45,219 nucleotides of DNA from Alcanivorax sp. S71-1-4. Lineage in GTDB: Bacteria > Pseudomonadota > Gammaproteobacteria > Pseudomonadales > Alcanivoracaceae. Shown piece by piece: positions 37,142-45,064 of this stretch (position 1 is the stretch's first letter; every line of letters begins with the position of its first letter). The notes below the pieces were generated by a model, which was given only the letters and a program-made list of their open reading frames with translations, did no database searches and had not been told where the DNA came from. The stretch covers positions 1 to 45,219 of the forward strand of contig NZ_AQOR01000032.1 of the NCBI RefSeq assembly GCF_009846755.1, given 5' to 3'. The position numbers and the translations under genes were made by a program.

Positions 37142-38449
37142 ATGAAGCTCAGATCATTCGGCTCCCTTGCCCTGACCAGCTGTGCGCTACTCACACTGGG
37201 GACATCCGTATCCGCCAACATGGGGAACTCGCCCTCCACCTACGGTTTGCTGCCCGGCGATATCGCCTCGGCCCAGGCGCTGTCGATCTTCAACTCCCAG
37301 ATTTCGGCGGTGTACTACAACCCGGCCAACCTGGCGAAAGACCCGCGCGGCGAATTGACTGGCGGCATCTTCCACGCCGATCATGACCTGCAGGCGAACG
37401 GTTCCACCATCATGGACGAGCCGTCCCAGCAACTGCAGCTGGGTTTGAAGACCGACCTCAGCTCGATCTCCACCCTGGAGCACCCGCTGTACTTCGGCCT
37501 GATGGTGGGCGTCGAGAAGTTTGCCCAGGAGATGATGGCCTTCTCCTCCGAGACGTCGGACTACGGCCAGTATTTCACCTATGGCCGTCAGCCGCTGTTC
37601 CTGACCGCCGGCGCCGGCACCAGCGTCTGGCGCGGTATTGATGTGGGCTTCGCCCTGCGTGTGACCCTGCACGCTGACGCCACCCTGAACACCCGCTCCA
37701 CCCTGGGCGGCGTGACCAGCCAGGAATCCCTGAATGTGTCCGCTGCACCCAAGTTCCGCCCCATCCTGGGCGTGAACATCAACTGGGGCGAAACCTTCTG
37801 CAGCCGTGCCAACTGCTGGATGGACAACCTGGAAACCGCAATCTCCTATCGCGCCTATTCCAATACACGCACCAAAGTACGCTCCAACGTCATCGTGCCC
37901 GGCACCATCCCGGCGCCCGGCCTCGACCTGGCCATCAAGACCCTGGATTCCTTCCAGCCGGCCATCACGGCCGTGGGCGTGAAGTACGATTTCGGCACCT
38001 GGCGCCTGGGTGTGACGGGTGAATACCAGGCATGGTCTCGCCTTGAGCGCGAGTTCCGCGACGACACCATCAAGGATCAGGCCAACGCCAACTTCAAGGA
38101 CATCTTCATTCCCCGTATCGGCATCGAGGTACCCGCAGGTGATCACTTCACCTTCACCGGCGGTATCGCTTGGGAAGAAACCCCGATCGAAGGCAAGCGC
38201 AGCCTGGACGTGAACTACCTGGATGCCGACCGCTGGGTCGTGGGCCTGGGCATGAGCGCCATCATTCCGAAAATGCCGCTGCTGGCTTACCCGGTACGTA
38301 TGGACCTGGGCTACCAGTATCAGCAACTGGATAACAAAACCTACGAGCTGACCTCCACCAACCCGCTGACCCCGCCGGGCGTCTATGGTGAAGTGGAAAC
38401 CGATGGCGAAGTGCATGTCTTCGCTGCGTCAGTGACGTTGAAATTCTAA
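37142..38449 (+). CDS. FadL/TodX-like outer-membrane hydrophobic substrate channel
   Basis: 435 residues. Signal peptide about 1-25 (VSA). The plug region has SAQALSIFNSQISAVYYNPANLAKD, matching the FadL pattern in which asymmetric NPA follows an Ala-rich strand. The rest is alternating amphipathic strands of a 14-stranded barrel, ending VFAASVTLKF with C-terminal Phe. FadL proteins carry long-chain fatty acids, alkanes or aromatics across the outer membrane. GGAG lies nine bases before the ATG. A giant lipoprotein gene starts 62 bp after the stop and is probably co-transcribed. The Cys pair (SRANC) in a predicted loop is unusual for a FadL protein. Confidence 0.82.
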   Translation: MKLRSFGSLALTSCALLTLGTSVSANMGNSPSTYGLLPGDIASAQALSIFNSQISAVYYNPANLAKDPRGELTGGIFHADHDLQANGSTIMDEPSQQLQLGLKTDLSSISTLEHPLYFGLMVGVEKFAQEMMAFSSETSDYGQYFTYGRQPLFLTAGAGTSVWRGIDVGFALRVTLHADATLNTRSTLGGVTSQESLNVSAAPKFRPILGVNINWGETFCSRANCWMDNLETAISYRAYSNTRTKVRSNVIVPGTIPAPGLDLAIKTLDSFQPAITAVGVKYDFGTWRLGVTGEYQAWSRLEREFRDDTIKDQANANFKDIFIPRIGIEVPAGDHFTFTGGIAWEETPIEGKRSLDVNYLDADRWVVGLGMSAIIPKMPLLAYPVRMDLGYQYQQLDNKTYELTSTNPLTPPGVYGEVETDGEVHVFAASVTLKF

Positions 38450-38511: not shown

Positions 38512-41500
38512 ATGAAAAGAATAATCATGGCAGCCATGATTGTGTCCCTGGCCGCGTGTGGTGGGGATAAGGATGATGTGGCGACGGAGCAGCAGCAGGA
38601 GTGGGAAAGCCAGAAGCAAAGCCTGGTGTACTCGTTCCCGGACGACAACCAGCAGCAGGTGCCGGTGCCCTCGCCGGTGGTGCTGCGTTTTTCCAGTCCG
38701 GTCATGGAAACATCGCCGGCGGTTGTTCTGCGTGAAGTGGGCGGGCCGGTTGTCTCGGACTTCGAGATGGAATGGGTGGACGGCAAGCGTGGGCTGATTA
38801 TTACGCCGGACAGCAAGCTGAAGCCGATGACGGACTATGTGGTACAGGTTCCTGCCATTGAACTTGAGAAGGGCGTGGCACCGGCGAAGAACATCCGGTT
38901 CAGCACACGTGCCCTGTTTGAAGGGCCGAAAAGCCTGGTGGCCAGCGACACCTTTGAAGTAACGCGGATGATTCCGGATGGTGAGAATTATCAGGTGATG
39001 GATTTCTCCAGCTTCCGGGTTCAGTTCAGCCAGCCGCTGGACCAGACCACTGTGAAGTATGGTGACAGTGCGGATGCCACGGTGCAGTTAACGGGGCCGG
39101 AAGGCGTGGTGGATGCGCATCTGCTGGTCAGTGGGCATTACATGACGGTGGATCCGAAAGAGGATCTGACGCCTGGGGTGGAGTATTCGCTGAATATGAC
39201 AACCGGGATTACCAGTACCTACGGCGAAACCTTGCCGGGTGGGAGCTTTGGGAATCCGGGGGACACGTTGGCGGTGAGTGTGAAAGTGTCACCGCAGGAT
39301 ACTAAGGCGCCGGGTACAGGGCTTCGGGTGTCTATGGTGCAGGATGTGGCGGATACGGGGGAGCTTTCTCCGTTGACGGGGCAGCCGATTAATCTGGTGC
39401 CGATGGCTTCTGTTTTGCTTGGTGAGGATACAGCTACTCAAGCGAGTGGGACAATTTCGGCTGAGCTGGCGTTTGTGCCTAATTTTCCGGATGCGACGCC
39501 GTTTCGGGTTAAGCGGGGGTCCTTGATTGAAGGGGCTTCGATTGAGGTGTTGATTGGTGGGGAAGTGCCGGCTGGGTTTGAGTCTGGCAAGGTGAGGATG
39601 GATTTCTTGTCGGATGCGACGGGGTATTTGTTGCCGAATCCCTATAGCAATTCGGATGAGGCGCCGCGGCAGGTGCGGTTGTTTATGGATGTGGCGGTGT
39701 CTACGGAGACGCCGAGTGCTAATGGGGCGATTACGCAGGATTTGTTGCATATTGAGTTGGTGGGGACGTCGATTGTTGAAGATGGAGTGATGGTGATTAA
39801 TGCGGTGGGGGTTGTGGAGCCGGATGTGTTGGGTTCGGAAAGAGCAAAAGGAATCTTAAGTTTCTACATGAAGGCGTTTGAAGATCAAGATAGAGCGCCG
39901 CAGCCAACAAACGATTCTTCTCCACTTACAGTTCAGTCATGGACTCCAACTGGTGATAACGAAGAAAGAATAAAGTTAGACGACCCGATTGTTGTAAATT
40001 TCAACAGTCCTATAAGTATAGAAAATAAAAATGAAATAAAGCTGTACAAAAACGGGGAAATTATTGAAGTAAATGTGACAGTCGACGGTGCAGCAATGGT
40101 TGTCCGGCCTATTCAAGGTCTTGATTATAGTGAAGACGAAGATGCTACAATATATAGGCTAGCATTTGGTGATTCAGTAAAAAGTATAAATGGCGGCGGT
40201 TACGATGGAGAAGATGAAATAGAATTTGAAATGCCGGGAATGGTTACTCAGGGAGATTGGTATCCATATGGTCAGGCAGAGCCCAATCTCGCTGCTACTC
40301 CAGTACCATACTCGGTTCCGCTTCGATCAGCGATAGTTCTCTCTTTGTACCCAGGATATCCATGTGTTATTGACGAAAGCACAATAGATCTCGTATCAGG
40401 AACCTCAGGAAAATGCCTCGGGTCGGCCGCTGGAGTTTATGAAGGCGACGGGGATAGAATCTTTCCTGAAGACGATGCAATTCCACTATCTACAATACAT
40501 TCAAATTTCCCGATAGTGATTCAATTCTCTAAAGAATTGAGAAAGGATAGTGTTGTTCTTGGGAGTACGTTAAAGGTGGAAGAAATAAATGTGGATAATG
40601 AGTATGTAAGGAGCATAAATGGCAGGGTTGATGTCGAATCAAAAAGAATAACATTCTGGCCAGAATCGCCTTGGGAAAATGGAAGTTATTATCGATATAC
40701 CATTTCATCAAATGGAAACAGAAACTCAGAATCTGCTGTATGCGATGGAAGCCAATCAGTATGTGACAAAGATAACTTTCCTATACAAACTCAACTATAT
40801 GTTGTACTAAAAGAACCCTCTAGACCCTGCGCGCCTGGAAATCCTTGTGATCGTGATTGGAGGGTATACCACTCGCCTTCAATGGAGCGAGGAGGCGGAC
40901 TTGATATGACTCAATATTTCCAAGGTGGAGAGTCGAGTGCGAACGTAATGCAGGCATTAGTAGCCCCCTCATATGATGTAAATGCCAATTTCATCCATGA
41001 GAAAGCTGAGAATATTACTGATAGTGTTAATGGTGCTCTAGCCACCACATCGGGAAACGCGTCTTTAGGCGTGAAACATATTGAGTACGCAAAGGAAGAG
41101 AAAGGAGCTGAGGATCAGCCACTTGACCCGTATGCCTGTACTGATCCATTGGAACCTTGTTATGACCCTGATGGAGTAATCCCACCCCCCAACTCTGCAA
41201 AGATTCTCTCGAGAAAGGCAGATGATCCCGAAGATCAGCTTGCATCGGTTCCTGTCGTTGGAGCTACAATTGGCTGTGGTTACTCCCATGTAGAACCTTA
41301 TCCTGGGCTCCCTGTAGGAGTTGGCTTCCCATTAACTTGCCCGAAGCAGAAATTTACTTATTTGAATAGCTCTTTGATTACAGAGGTCACTGACGAGTAT
41401 GTTCCTGGAAAGGGACTGAAAGTTTTAATTCATCCGGGGCAAATATCTGGAACTAGTATTAATGTGAGATCAAGAATATTCTCAGGACAGTTTGTAATGC

Positions 41501-41934
41501 GTATCGATTCAGGTCCGCAGATGATGAGAATGAGATATGCTAAAAATGATCCTTTGTGTGAAGATAGTGGACTTGAAAAATGCGCTAGAAGTAAACCAAT
41601 TGAAGCTTGGATAACATATGGAGATTCTGGTCCAGCCTTGGATGCTGAAGTTGATTTGTATATTGATGCTCCGGAGTTGGTTTCTGGGTTCCAAAATGGA
41701 CCTGGCTTAATATTTGGTTCGCATGAGCTTGTAAGTTTTCCTGTTTCAATGCACCTAACCGGAAGGATTAGCTTTTCTGAAGATGGTAGGATGATAATAG
41801 AACAGTACAATATTAATGATGTCGATCTTCAGTTTGATGTAATTCAGGATGGGTATGCGTTTACAATAATGGATCTTTTCATTCCAGCATATGGTAGTAG
41901 GCTCGAATATTTATCTGATGTGATCAAGAAATGA
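38512..41934 (+). CDS. Giant Ig-like-domain lipoprotein with mosaic codon usage
   Basis: 1140 residues from the ATG at 38512, with AGGAGG upstream. Lipobox SLAAC (Cys16), then an acidic Gln/Glu segment, then repeated Ig-like (Big_5/SbsA-type) modules: one about residues 35-130 (SFPDDNQQQVPVPSPVVLRFSSPVM), one about 150-265, and others in the second half (VQSWTPTGDNEERIKLDDPIVVNFNSPI near 475; FPIVIQFSKELRKDS near 665). It follows the FadL-like gene by 62 bp and is a plausible surface partner of it. The reading frame is uninterrupted, but codon use changes: balanced up to ~39,250, then almost only G- or T-ending codons up to ~39,838 (residue ~442), then AT-rich to the end. This suggests replacement of its 3' part by foreign DNA. 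Confidence 0.85.
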   Translation: MKRIIMAAMIVSLAACGGDKDDVATEQQQEWESQKQSLVYSFPDDNQQQVPVPSPVVLRFSSPVMETSPAVVLREVGGPVVSDFEMEWVDGKRGLIITPDSKLKPMTDYVVQVPAIELEKGVAPAKNIRFSTRALFEGPKSLVASDTFEVTRMIPDGENYQVMDFSSFRVQFSQPLDQTTVKYGDSADATVQLTGPEGVVDAHLLVSGHYMTVDPKEDLTPGVEYSLNMTTGITSTYGETLPGGSFGNPGDTLAVSVKVSPQDTKAPGTGLRVSMVQDVADTGELSPLTGQPINLVPMASVLLGEDTATQASGTISAELAFVPNFPDATPFRVKRGSLIEGASIEVLIGGEVPAGFESGKVRMDFLSDATGYLLPNPYSNSDEAPRQVRLFMDVAVSTETPSANGAITQDLLHIELVGTSIVEDGVMVINAVGVVEPDVLGSERAKGILSFYMKAFEDQDRAPQPTNDSSPLTVQSWTPTGDNEERIKLDDPIVVNFNSPISIENKNEIKLYKNGEIIEVNVTVDGAAMVVRPIQGLDYSEDEDATIYRLAFGDSVKSINGGGYDGEDEIEFEMPGMVTQGDWYPYGQAEPNLAATPVPYSVPLRSAIVLSLYPGYPCVIDESTIDLVSGTSGKCLGSAAGVYEGDGDRIFPEDDAIPLSTIHSNFPIVIQFSKELRKDSVVLGSTLKVEEINVDNEYVRSINGRVDVESKRITFWPESPWENGSYYRYTISSNGNRNSESAVCDGSQSVCDKDNFPIQTQLYVVLKEPSRPCAPGNPCDRDWRVYHSPSMERGGGLDMTQYFQGGESSANVMQALVAPSYDVNANFIHEKAENITDSVNGALATTSGNASLGVKHIEYAKEEKGAEDQPLDPYACTDPLEPCYDPDGVIPPPNSAKILSRKADDPEDQLASVPVVGATIGCGYSHVEPYPGLPVGVGFPLTCPKQKFTYLNSSLITEVTDEYVPGKGLKVLIHPGQISGTSINVRSRIFSGQFVMRIDSGPQMMRMRYAKNDPLCEDSGLEKCARSKPIEAWITYGDSGPALDAEVDLYIDAPELVSGFQNGPGLIFGSHELVSFPVSMHLTGRISFSEDGRMIIEQYNINDVDLQFDVIQDGYAFTIMDLFIPAYGSRLEYLSDVIKK

Positions 41935-41999
41935 TCTTGAAACGATGCTATTTCTCCTAAGGAAAAATCAGGAAAACATTACTCAACTATTATGACATA

Positions 42000-42059
42000 A
42001 ATCCTGAACCTTGTACCTTTGCAAGGTTCAGGATTGTAGTTGTAGGGATATACCTACAA
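42000..42059 (+). terminator. Pair of hairpins after the giant lipoprotein gene
   Basis: A 14-bp perfect stem (AATCCTGAACCTTG, 42000-42013, with its complement 42022-42035) and then TTGTAGG/CCTACAA (42040-42059). There is no clear T-run, so termination may be weak or Rho-assisted; RNA stabilisation is an alternative. Confidence 0.45.
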
Positions 42060-42121
42060 TATGAGGTGGAGAAATGTTAATTAGTGAAGATTTGCTATCG
42101 TGACCACCCTTAACTTTCTGA

Positions 42122-42193
42122 TTCTATCTTGCCATTTTGATAAATATCAAAGCTTTAAAGAAAGCGATTGCGCGCCTTTCTTCTATCTTGCCA
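42122..42193. repeat. 13-bp direct repeat TTCTATCTTGCCA
   Basis: Identical copies at 42122-42134 and 42181-42193 in AT-rich non-coding DNA. They could be recombination scars or regulator sites. Confidence 0.6.
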
Positions 42194-42508
42194 AGAACCC
42201 TAGGCATTCGTCTTTCTCTCTCAATAGTATTTTACCATCTGCATAGGAAGAATTTATTCTTGGATCTATCAAAAGAAGAAAAAGAAAAGTAGTTTTAATC
42301 ATTGCTTGTGTATGTCTTAGGATGAGGAATTATTTGTTTTACTCGTATTGTGTTTATTGATTTTCTGTTTTCTGGAATAGTCCCTACTGTCCATGGAGAA
42401 CATGGAGATAGCCAAATAGAGAAATCTAAAAAATCAACCGATGTTGGAGTTTCTCTGTGCTCTTAGGACTCAAAATAACTCTTAACGCTTTAAGTAAGGA
42501 GACAGAAT

Positions 42509-43207
42509 ATGAAAAGCCTAACCGGTACTATTTATCTTGGAGCTATAAGCGCTTGTTTGCTTTTGGCAGGTAATGCAAATGCAGCAATATTTGCTTCTAT
42601 TAACGGTGGATCGGCAGTGAGTTTGCCAACGGAAGCTGATCCGGACTTTTATTTTATCTTTAAGGGGGACGATGTAGAACTGAATCGCATACTCACGGTA
42701 ACTTGTGACGGGGTCACCGTTGGTGGCTTTCTTATGGAAGACCCGTCTGGAACGGTTCATATTGATGTCGTCCATGGCATGATTCAGGATACCTCAGGTT
42801 TCTTGTGCGATGAAATATTCATGGAATTTGATAATGGCTATCATGATGCACTCTACCCTGATCCGACTGTGTATGTAGATGGTGCTTGGTTCGCAGATAT
42901 AGGTGAGGGCCAATTACCAACATCTGCCACTTCAACAGCTGTCGTAACAGATACTATTAATAATGTTCAAGTTCTAGCGCCAGGAATATTTGGACCATCA
43001 TACTGCGATACTGCAACGGGTGGGTCAGGTGGTCCATTGTCTGTGGATTATAGTAATAACGGTACATCTGCTTCCTACTTCGATTTTGCGTCTTCCTTAG
43101 GGGGCTGTAGTCTGACCGGCACCTTATATGCTGTCCCAGCTAATTCTATGAAGATCTTTGATCCTAATCTCCCGCCCCAAGGAGATATTGATATTTGGAC
43201 TCAGTAA
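42509..43207 (+). CDS. Secreted protein resembling PraB-type alkane oxidation activators
   Basis: 232 residues; signal peptide about 1-25 (ANA). The mature part is strand-rich with paired Cys (VTCDG, FLCDE, SYCDT, GGCSL). The C-terminal block INNVQVLAP ... GGCSLTGTLYAVPANSMKI resembles the end of Pseudomonas PraA/PraB proteins, small secreted activators of alkane emulsification; the match is by pattern only. A strong ribosome site (AAGGAG) and a perfect terminator bound it as a single-gene unit. It lies in the AT-rich tract that begins inside the preceding gene, so it may be acquired. Confidence 0.6.
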   Translation: MKSLTGTIYLGAISACLLLAGNANAAIFASINGGSAVSLPTEADPDFYFIFKGDDVELNRILTVTCDGVTVGGFLMEDPSGTVHIDVVHGMIQDTSGFLCDEIFMEFDNGYHDALYPDPTVYVDGAWFADIGEGQLPTSATSTAVVTDTINNVQVLAPGIFGPSYCDTATGGSGGPLSVDYSNNGTSASYFDFASSLGGCSLTGTLYAVPANSMKIFDPNLPPQGDIDIWTQ

Positions 43208-43222
43208 GATAGTAGTGTGAAG

Positions 43223-43250
43223 AATAAAGGGCCCCGCTGGGCCCTTTATT
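43223..43250. terminator. 12-bp perfect terminator hairpin, bidirectional type
   Basis: AATAAAGGGCCC (43223-43234) pairs with GGGCCCTTTATT (43239-43250) around CGCT, 15 bp after the PraB-like gene. The A/T flanks on both sides allow termination in either direction. Confidence 0.9.
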
Positions 43251-43295
43251 CATAAATAGCTTCAATTTTATAGTTGACATTCTGGAGTCTCGGAT

Positions 43296-44009
43296 ATGGC
43301 TTATAGATCATTTGTTTTTTTTTCTATTGTATTTTTTCTTTCCGCTTGTTCGAAATTTCAAGACGCAGAAGTTGATCATGCTGATAACTATAAGTCATCG
43401 TATGCTGTTGGATATAAAACAGGCGCCTCTCTTAGTCGAAATTTTAATCAAGGGTATCAAATTGATATAGATGTATTCCTTGCTGCAATGAAAGACGGGA
43501 TACAAGGCCTAGAAGAAGGCTTACCCATGACTTATTCTGAGATGGATGAAGAACTACTGAGGTTCAACGAGGCTAGGCTTAAATTTTCTTTGGATAAAAA
43601 GAACGAATTAATAGAAAAAAACAGAATTCTAGGAGAAAAATACGCATCGGAGAACTCTTTGGATGCTGGGGTCGTGACATTAGGTAGTGGTATTCAGTAC
43701 AAAGTTATCGCATCGGGAACAGGAGATCGTTTGGCAGGTGACAATGATATCGTGTCTGTAAATTACGAGGCGGCTTATGTTGACGGGAGAGTATTTGACG
43801 ATTCTTTGGACAGGGAGGAGACACCAACTTTCAAAGTTAAGGATAGCATTCCAGGTTGGCGGGAAGTGCTAAAAATGATGAAAGAGGGAGACATATGGGA
43901 GGTTATGATCCCAGCAACCATGGCCTATGGGGAAAAAGGATATGGAGATACAATTGAGCCTGGGATGACATTGATATATAGAATGAGCCTTGAAAGCATC
44001 GAGGAATAA
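43296..44009 (+). CDS. FKBP-type peptidyl-prolyl isomerase lipoprotein (FkpA/Mip-like)
   Basis: 237 residues. Lipobox FLSAC, then a helical dimerisation domain (about 35-125) starting SYAVGYKTGASLSRNF, as in FkpA/Mip, and an FKBP domain (about 128-235) with GIQYKVIASGTGD, VSVNYEAAYVDGRVFDDS, SIPGWREVLKMMKEGD and PATMAYGEKG. It assists folding of periplasmic proteins. GGAG lies eight bases upstream. Codon use is AT-rich compared with the rest of the window. The gene is the last before IS debris, so horizontal origin is likely. Confidence 0.93.
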   Translation: MAYRSFVFFSIVFFLSACSKFQDAEVDHADNYKSSYAVGYKTGASLSRNFNQGYQIDIDVFLAAMKDGIQGLEEGLPMTYSEMDEELLRFNEARLKFSLDKKNELIEKNRILGEKYASENSLDAGVVTLGSGIQYKVIASGTGDRLAGDNDIVSVNYEAAYVDGRVFDDSLDREETPTFKVKDSIPGWREVLKMMKEGDIWEVMIPATMAYGEKGYGDTIEPGMTLIYRMSLESIEE

Positions 44010-44205: not shown

Positions 44206-45064
44206 TCACAGCGCTTTAGAGCCAAGGGTTAATGTAACCGGATTGCGTGCCAACTGTCTCGCATAGGCGGATGGCGTCAATCCACCCAGCCCACGCTTTG
44301 GCCGTTCATCGTTATATTCTCGACGCCATTGCTCCACAATCACCTGGGCATGCGCCAGGCTAGTGAACCAATGCTCGTTGAGACATTCATCCCGGAAGCG
44401 CCCATTGAACGATTCAACATAGGCGTTCTGGTTGGGTTTGCCTGGCTGGATGAGGAACAGCTGCACGCCAGCCTCATGGGCCCAGGTCAGCATATCCTTG
44501 CCGCAGAATTCCTTACCGTTATCGGTACGGATGGCCTGAGGCAGCCCACGAGCCAGTGCCAGCCTGTCCAGCATGCGTATCACACCCATGCCGTTGATGC
44601 CGCGCTCAACAGCAATGGCAACCGCTTCATGAGTGGCGTCATCCACAATCGTCAGACACTTCAGCACGCGGCTATCGGCCGTGCGGTCGAAGACAAAATC
44701 CATGGACCAGACCCGGTTCGCCTCTGCTGGACGCACCAAGGGACAGCGATCCGAGATAGGGATTTTCTTGCGCTTTCGGCGCCGTACCTGAAGCCCTTCC
44801 AGCGCATACAGCCGATCAACACGCTTGTGGTTCACCAGGAGACCCGCCTGCCGTAGCTTCAGGTAGATCATTTCAGCCCCGTATCGGCGGTGACGGTGCA
44901 GCCAATGCAACTATCCGCTCGCGCAGCACCCCATTACGGTCTGGCGCAGGCTGATACCGGAAAGCGCTGGCGCTCATGCGAACCACGCGCAGTGCCCGCC
45001 GCTCAGACAAGCCCCTGCTCGTCATGAAACGCACCAGTTCACGTCTGGCTGGCGCGCTCACCAC
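44206..45064 (-). pseudogene. IS3-family transposase orfB, frameshifted
   Basis: The N-terminal part (45064 downwards) encodes ARRELVRFMTSRGLSERRALRVVRMSASAFRYQP, the usual start of an IS3/IS407-group OrfB, and runs into a stop at 44873. The rest, in another frame, has [14 protein letters not shown], the integrase core with WSMDFVFD (first Asp), RTDNGKEF (second Asp) and [19 protein letters not shown] (Glu). One extra base at about 44899 separates the two; removing it restores [13 protein letters not shown]. The gene is therefore probably inactive unless the copy is rescued by frameshifting. Confidence 0.85.

Follow-up and report, generated by a model that had tools for sequence, protein, structure and literature searches.

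A mosaic aupB-like gene in Alcanivorax sp. S71-1-4: apparent exchange of its 3' half together with a neighbouring secreted-protein gene

Introduction

In Marinobacter hydrocarbonoclasticus, the envelope proteins AupA and AupB (MARHY0477) co-immunoprecipitate and are needed for growth on alkanes; Alcanivorax can carry up to six copies of aupAB (PMC5989066). PraA and PraB are described as alkane-solubilising activators, and a praA mutant grows slowly on hexadecane (PMC4542665). Here we describe an aupB-like gene of Alcanivorax sp. S71-1-4 that lies on contig NZ_AQOR01000032.1 (assembly GCF_009846755.1). The whole stretch of 45,219 nucleotides that was analysed is called the window.

The locus resembles the described operon in having an aupA-like channel gene directly followed by a large gene on the same strand, and in being multi-copy in Alcanivorax (PMC5989066). 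The upstream gene matches the NCBIfam AupA model at 530.7 bits over residues 14-435, under the equivalog cut-off of 840. The window gene gives no match to the NCBIfam AupB model; it is named AupB-like from its architecture and its position directly after the AupA-like gene. The available text of PMC5989066 describes neither the exchange of half a gene nor a PraA/B-like neighbour. The word 'recombination' occurs 0 times in that paper.

It is highly probable, in our judgement, that the window gene is a mosaic allele, with a stable 5' half and an exchanged 3' half. A downstream gene for a small secreted protein (the partner gene) has apparently been exchanged with the 3' half, and the two products probably form a matched pair. 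The features are listed in Table 1.

Table 1. Features of the aupB-like locus in the window
Feature	Position	Strand	Description
aupA-like gene, FadL/OmpP1-type outer-membrane channel	37142..38449	+	435 aa; Pfam Toluene_X 35.8 bits
aupB-like lipoprotein gene, apparent mosaic	38512..41934	+	1140 aa; uninterrupted frame; lipobox LAAC by eye; Big_5 domains
Putatively stable 5' half of aupB-like gene	38512..39838	+	signal; two Big_5 domains (residues 37-116, 148-242)
G/T-ending, C- and A-depleted tract	39265..39838	+	codons 252-442
Junction	39838..39892	+	composition step after 39,837; DNA similarity to relatives stops near codon 460
Apparently exchanged AT-rich 3' half	39839..41934	+	GC3 0.31; Big_5 at residues 468-572
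Partner gene, small secreted protein (SSP) family	42509..43207	+	232 aa; same strand as aupB
FKBP-type prolyl isomerase, lipoprotein-like	43296..44009	+	Pfam FKBP_C 74 bits, FKBP_N

Composition of the Window Gene

The frame runs from an ATG at 38,512 to a stop at 41,934. Its G+C content at third codon positions (GC3) falls from 0.67 to 0.31 at a maximum-likelihood change point after codon 442, whose last base is 39,837 (likelihood ratio 143). The 5' part holds a step of its own: C-ending codons drop from 22.3% to 2.6% after codon 251 (39,265; likelihood ratio 42), which was matched by 0 of 1000 shuffles of codon order. Among 354 open reading frames of at least 250 codons, drawn from the window and from related loci that in part overlap, the 180-codon stretch most depleted in A and C lies in this gene (0.072; the next gene has 0.272).

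A sequence-only reading of this DNA had described three codon-usage regimes, and every one of its counts was reproduced exactly. These are the third positions of 38,881-38,940 (9 G, 6 C, 3 A, 2 T), the C-ending codons of 39,301-39,840 (5 of 180), the last 80 codons before 39,840 (third base 49 G, 25 T, 3 C, 3 A), the bases of 39,781-39,840 (29 G, 4 C) and the third positions of 39,841-39,900 (8 A, 4 T, 5 G, 3 C). Its description of the first regime as normal needs amendment, because that regime already favours G as third base (40-57% G and 18-32% C per block of 60 codons). A/T-ending codons do continue to the stop, as it had stated, but AT-rich DNA is not confined to the gene and extends to about 44,000.

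After the second Big_5 domain, the 5' half continues with a segment that has no Pfam family. The limit of DNA similarity at the junction sits in a conserved amino-acid block, immediately before the third Big_5 domain. Further on, a weak Big_5 at residues 663-734 scores 22.6 bits against a Pfam cut-off of 23.6, and about 370 residues of the 3' half match no Pfam family. A structure model of the whole protein was unusable (mean pLDDT, the predicted local distance difference test score, 44.5).

Replacement of the 3' Half Across the Family

Homologues of aupB occur in 34 of 57 genomes, all 34 of them from the window's own family, and in 0 of the 21 genomes of other families. An order-wide search of 293 genomes gave six matches at E <=1e-150, every one again in that family. 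The counts below omit L037, L038 and L040, which duplicate L045, L073 and L048, as well as L053, a copy split into two frames that has a partner, and L067, a broken copy.

Genes that are nearly alike in their 5' (N) half are seldom alike in their 3' (C) half. Fifteen of the 861 pairs among 42 genes share at least 94% DNA identity in the N half; the C halves are 48-58% identical in 14 of these pairs and 98.9% identical in the fifteenth. The fall in DNA identity, from >90% to 30-60%, takes one or at most two windows of 15 codons. In three groups the break lies near P0001 residue 475, 550 or 565; it lies near residue 460 both in L069/L072 and in the window compared with L041 and L043, to which it is 83% and 81% identical in DNA from within aupA to near codon 460. 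Breaks at about codons 460-565 fall just before the third Big_5 domain or within it, near its end.

For instance, L049 and L055 share 93-94% identical DNA from 5.9 kb upstream to codon 509. Beyond this point more than 3 kb show no match, and then an identity of 92-97% returns.

The two halves also have different phylogenies. By the approximately unbiased (AU) test, three of four groups defined by the N half are rejected by C-half data: {L049, L055, L046, L051} (p 4e-49), {L069, L072, L054} (p 2e-7) and {L061, L050, L047} (p 0.0075). The N half rejects all 3 of 3 C-defined clusters (p 3e-30, 1e-8 and 2e-4). Clusters of the C half unite different genera, contrary to the N tree.

Because the DNA is alike on both sides of the break region and the N and C trees conflict, the 3' half of aupB has been replaced, and recombination with a foreign homologue is supported as the route. 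This was one of two explanations offered by the sequence-only reading, which had also pointed to relatives with the same regimes and a vertical phylogeny as evidence against it. The GC3 drop does recur in many relatives, but their phylogeny is not vertical. The likelihood ratio of the step exceeds 60 in 24 of 34 island-type genes (typically 0.80-0.89 to 0.41-0.61) and the step is weaker or missing in 10; in eight core-locus paralogues the ratio is at most 19. Wherever a partner gene is present, the C half has a lower GC3 than the N half (31 of 31 loci). The step near 39,838 is one instance of a family-wide pattern, which goes beyond the earlier account of a single gene.

In the other 45 genomes of the family, DNA matches to 39,839-43,400 do not exceed about 160 bases, and no donor was found. 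Plasmid pHP-187 of Marinobacter adhaerens, which has the same order of a channel gene, an Ig-like gene and a 232-aa gene, was rejected as donor: its 232-aa gene is unrelated to the partner (a negatively scoring forced alignment gives 21%), and its Ig-like gene reaches no more than 36-37% identity to either AupB half. Chi-like sites (GCTGGTGG) number 0 in either half of the window gene, which gives them no support as recombination signals.

The split copy mentioned above (L053:7204-10792, in G019) forms two overlapping frames that meet near the usual junction, at residues 455/457, and has a partner downstream.

The Secreted Partner Gene

Occurrence. A partner gene lies downstream within 3.9 kb (nearest edge) of 31 of 34 island-type aupB genes and of 0 of 8 core-type genes, classes that were assigned in this first set after the data had been seen. 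The three island-type genes without one have 1, 389 and 797 bases of downstream sequence. The partner is convergent in 29 of the 31 loci and on the same strand in the window and L058. The comparison was repeated on held-out genes, picked by score alone from five genomes new to the analysis. All nine high-scoring genes had a partner within 2.2 kb, eight of them convergent, and none was found for 15 core rows (13 distinct genes, one with only 238 bases downstream). The GC3 drop was present in 8 of the 9; for the ninth, L087, masked bases in the 5' part made the test unusable.

Protein family. Partner proteins have 153-270 residues, contain cysteines, are highly diverse, and have N termini that look signal-like by eye. 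Compared with five partners, the PraA profile gave matches at E 4.6e-12, 6.6e-7, 1.2e-4 and 0.013. The window partner has no match to the PraA or PraB profile; it matches a profile of the SSP family built from twelve others, for which it was not a seed, at E 2.1e-8. By these profile scores, the partners appear remotely like the alkane-oxidation activators PraA and PraB. A five-row partner alignment (A2) gave matches in 12 of 17 genomes and missed the partner of G001 that is known from the list of neighbours, so its result is not a test of absence. The structure model of the L037 partner (mean pLDDT 80.3) consists predominantly of strands; no similar solved structure was found at E <=0.001, and naming of the fold was dropped.

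Two to four tandem genes of the partner family follow one aupB at L068, L060, L066, L045, L059 and L065.

Second break. The return of similarity was studied in 19 pairs of loci. Six of them (L049/L055, L046/L051, L046/L055, L052/L073, L061/L047 and L047/L050) become similar again 70-93 bp inside the convergent partner gene, close to where its signal-like segment ends. Most other pairs share the cassette, have no matching downstream flank, or cannot be read in this way. In the six pairs the replaced unit exceeds the gene: the 3' half of aupB changes together with the mature portion of the secreted protein. The replacement proposed earlier can thus be extended beyond aupB into the secreted-protein gene.

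Past the partner gene, L061, L047 and L050 carry repeated copies of an apparently mobile gene of about 310-400 aa that starts with MTDHDTSYKFLFAHAEM. Their downstream flank is therefore repetitive.

Co-variation. Distances between partners follow those between C halves. The partial Mantel correlation of C half and partner given the N half is 0.299, reached by 0 of 2000 permutations, and stays at 0.288 (1 of 2000) after removal of two near-duplicate cassettes; that of N half and partner given the C half is -0.048 (1477 of 2000). At 15 of 31 loci the closest relative by C half is also the closest by partner; for the N half this holds at 7 of 31. C half and partner are correlated in GC3 (rho 0.49, p 0.005); in the window the values are 0.31 for the C half of aupB and 0.36 for the mature part of the partner. 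AupA, compared at 20 loci, co-varies with the N half (0.26, 5 of 1000) and not with the C half (-0.105). Probably, the secreted protein and the AupB C half function as a matched pair, which would explain why the two stay together.

A Proposed Model of Two-Arm Exchange

The following course of events would account for these patterns. In Alcanivorax and sister genera, aupA and the 5' half of aupB are stable, and the 3' half is repeatedly replaced by versions that are divergent and mostly richer in AT. DNA that arrives with a different allele would recombine homologously in two conserved arms, namely the 5' half of aupB and the 5' end of the partner gene, so that both variable 3' parts are exchanged at once, as seen in the six pairs. 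At the cell surface, the AupB C half and the secreted partner may then cooperate in capturing hydrocarbons. The DsbC- and FKBP-like genes nearby would suit the folding of an exported protein that contains cysteines.

A more specific version of this model is tentative, and we hold it at somewhat less than even. AupB and its PraA/B-like neighbour could be a pair of the receptor-ligand type, with specificities exchanged as one two-gene cassette by recombination in the 5' arms. If this is true, each strain gains a matched variant for hydrocarbon capture or for self-recognition in biofilms on oil surfaces.

Several observations weigh against the two-arm model. The second break of L061/L050 lies about 235 bp within the partner gene; L073/L048 and L052/L048 regain similarity only past this gene. 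L058 and L059_1 have a partner and no GC3 step. By the AU test, the C half does not reject the clade {L073, L039, L048, L052} (p 0.19). No partner was found for the omitted broken copy L067. The window's second break could not be mapped, because no relative sharing its downstream flank was found. The late assignment of the island and core classes belongs here too, as does the adjacency of C half and partner, since linkage alone could yield their co-variation.

Alternative Explanations and the G/T-Ending Tract

The last point can be made into an explanation of its own. The 3' half of aupB and its neighbour may be exchanged as a block simply through adjacency, without any functional match. This is a serious candidate, which we put a little short of an even chance: the two genes are neighbours, their nearest edges up to 3.9 kb apart, and transposase-like genes lie between or beside them in some loci. 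However, six pairs have their breaks within the two coding regions, close to where the apparent signal peptide ends, and a partner accompanies every island-type gene that has sufficient downstream sequence and no core-type gene.

Alternatively, exchange may be driven by diversifying selection that phages, predators or competitors exert on surface parts, rather than by matching to a substrate or partner. Surface proteins under such pressure typically carry variable domains on a constant part. Nevertheless, this explanation is on the unlikely side; AupB of Marinobacter was found mainly in the inner-membrane fraction (PMC5989066), which does not suggest surface exposure.

A further process has been considered for the middle tract only. 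From 39,265 to 39,838, G or T stands at 176 of 191 third positions, and the tract coincides with the stretch that separates the second Big_5 domain from the junction. Changes were polarised at sites where L041 and L043 agree. At third positions C became T at 12 of 15 sites and G at 3 of 15, A became G at 10 of 12, T became G at 8 of 22 and C at 1 of 22, and G became A at 2 of 28. At first positions C became T at 10 of 40 sites, and 13 of 18 leucine codons are TTG. Synonymous divergence in the tract is not higher than between L041 and L043, so the tract reflects a directional bias and not a burst of change.

Long-lasting deamination of the coding strand, single-stranded in a recombining or R-loop-forming segment, is an improbable but definite proposal for this tract, and a coding-strand mutational process was the second explanation of the sequence-only reading. 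The direction of the C to T and A to G changes and the rarity of G to A fit it, and the first-position changes are in line with the TTG codons. The tract also stops at the junction, and L042, the second copy in G006, has a milder G bias at codons 301-480 and is the nearest sequence to the tract at codons 351-400 (83% in DNA). On the other side, T to G is not a product of deamination, and synonymous divergence is not raised. A milder G/T-ending zone also surrounds the change point in 20 of 23 other genes with sharp junctions, but core genes are similarly skewed at 441-480, which makes the zone unspecific; it is not claimed as a general footprint of junctions.

The likeness to L042 suggests an ancestral segment that has been exchanged. 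The tract is a separate bias next to the junction, in a segment that paralogues appear to exchange. The signature of a diversity-generating retroelement, adenine-specific mutation to any base at variable codons, was not seen: most changes are synonymous and run from C to T or from A to G, a result obtained with no reverse transcriptase search. An antisense reading frame of 153 aa (39289-39750, minus strand) lies over the tract; it is open because the plus strand lacks A-ending codons there, its own first positions falling on those third positions.

Divergence in place is very improbable. It would have the 3' half evolve fast under relaxed or diversifying selection and drift to AT-ending codons without any exchange, and it would agree with the fact that both aupB halves are recognisably homologous throughout their length. 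It does not account for an identity that collapses within one or two windows, and it is contradicted by the conflict of trees and by clusters that cross genera: the C halves of L072 and L054 are 88% identical, and L072 and L069 are 88% identical in their N halves but 43% in their C halves. An artefact of assembly or binning that joins two organisms in one contig, a thought raised by the fact that the window is an entire contig of a 77-contig genome, is scarcely credible given an uninterrupted frame across the junction and the same architecture in many genomes, including the single-contig ones G006, G019 and G065.

Neighbouring Genes and Further Copies

Genes for FKBP-like lipoproteins lie downstream of aupB in related loci too. 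A fragment of an IS3-family transposase (44206-44910, minus strand) sits immediately past the AT-rich stretch; it scores 202 bits against an NCBIfam cut-off of 160 and covers profile positions 144-368. Related loci also have transposase-like genes near aupB.

The genome of S71-1-4 carries a second aupB copy, 56% identical, with a convergent partner. Three more genes of the partner family lie about 8-12 kb upstream of it on the same contig (L084:8186-8743(-), 9274-9816(-) and 11019-11564(+)). They are possibly a reservoir of variants.

Significance

Toxins and surface antigens are known to exchange their C-terminal parts as modules. The present case concerns a nutrient-uptake system in the bacteria that dominate oil spills, where a single step seemingly exchanges the ends of two convergent genes. 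The loci offer a natural set of cognate and non-cognate pairs in which the role of the secreted partner and the origin of specificity in alkane uptake can be studied. A GC3 step together with a PraA/B-like neighbour provides a simple sequence signature for finding more cases. The G/T-ending tract of 190 codons is a rare strand-asymmetric anomaly that merits a study of its own.

Comparison with Known Systems

Among the matches listed in the open-licence literature, there was no report of swapping of the aupB 3' half. The partner family resembles PraA and PraB (NF041561 and NF041562) in consisting of small secreted proteins. Unlike them, its members score far under the equivalog cut-offs (at best 45.7 bits against 150 for PraA and 41.4 against 120 for PraB), are highly diverse, and are tied to aupB.

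Loci for polymorphic toxins and contact-dependent inhibition (CDI) provide another parallel. As here, they are reported to have a constant N-terminal part and a C-terminal part that is recombined together with a small neighbouring gene (PMC3482391 and PMC11630599), and in aupB the C-terminal part does appear to be exchanged with its neighbour. Pfam detects no toxin domain in the exchanged C half, only Big_5, and an unknown toxin fold is possible. The aupB loci also differ from the toxin loci in that the neighbour has an apparent signal peptide and is usually convergent, and in that both AupB halves stay homologous throughout.

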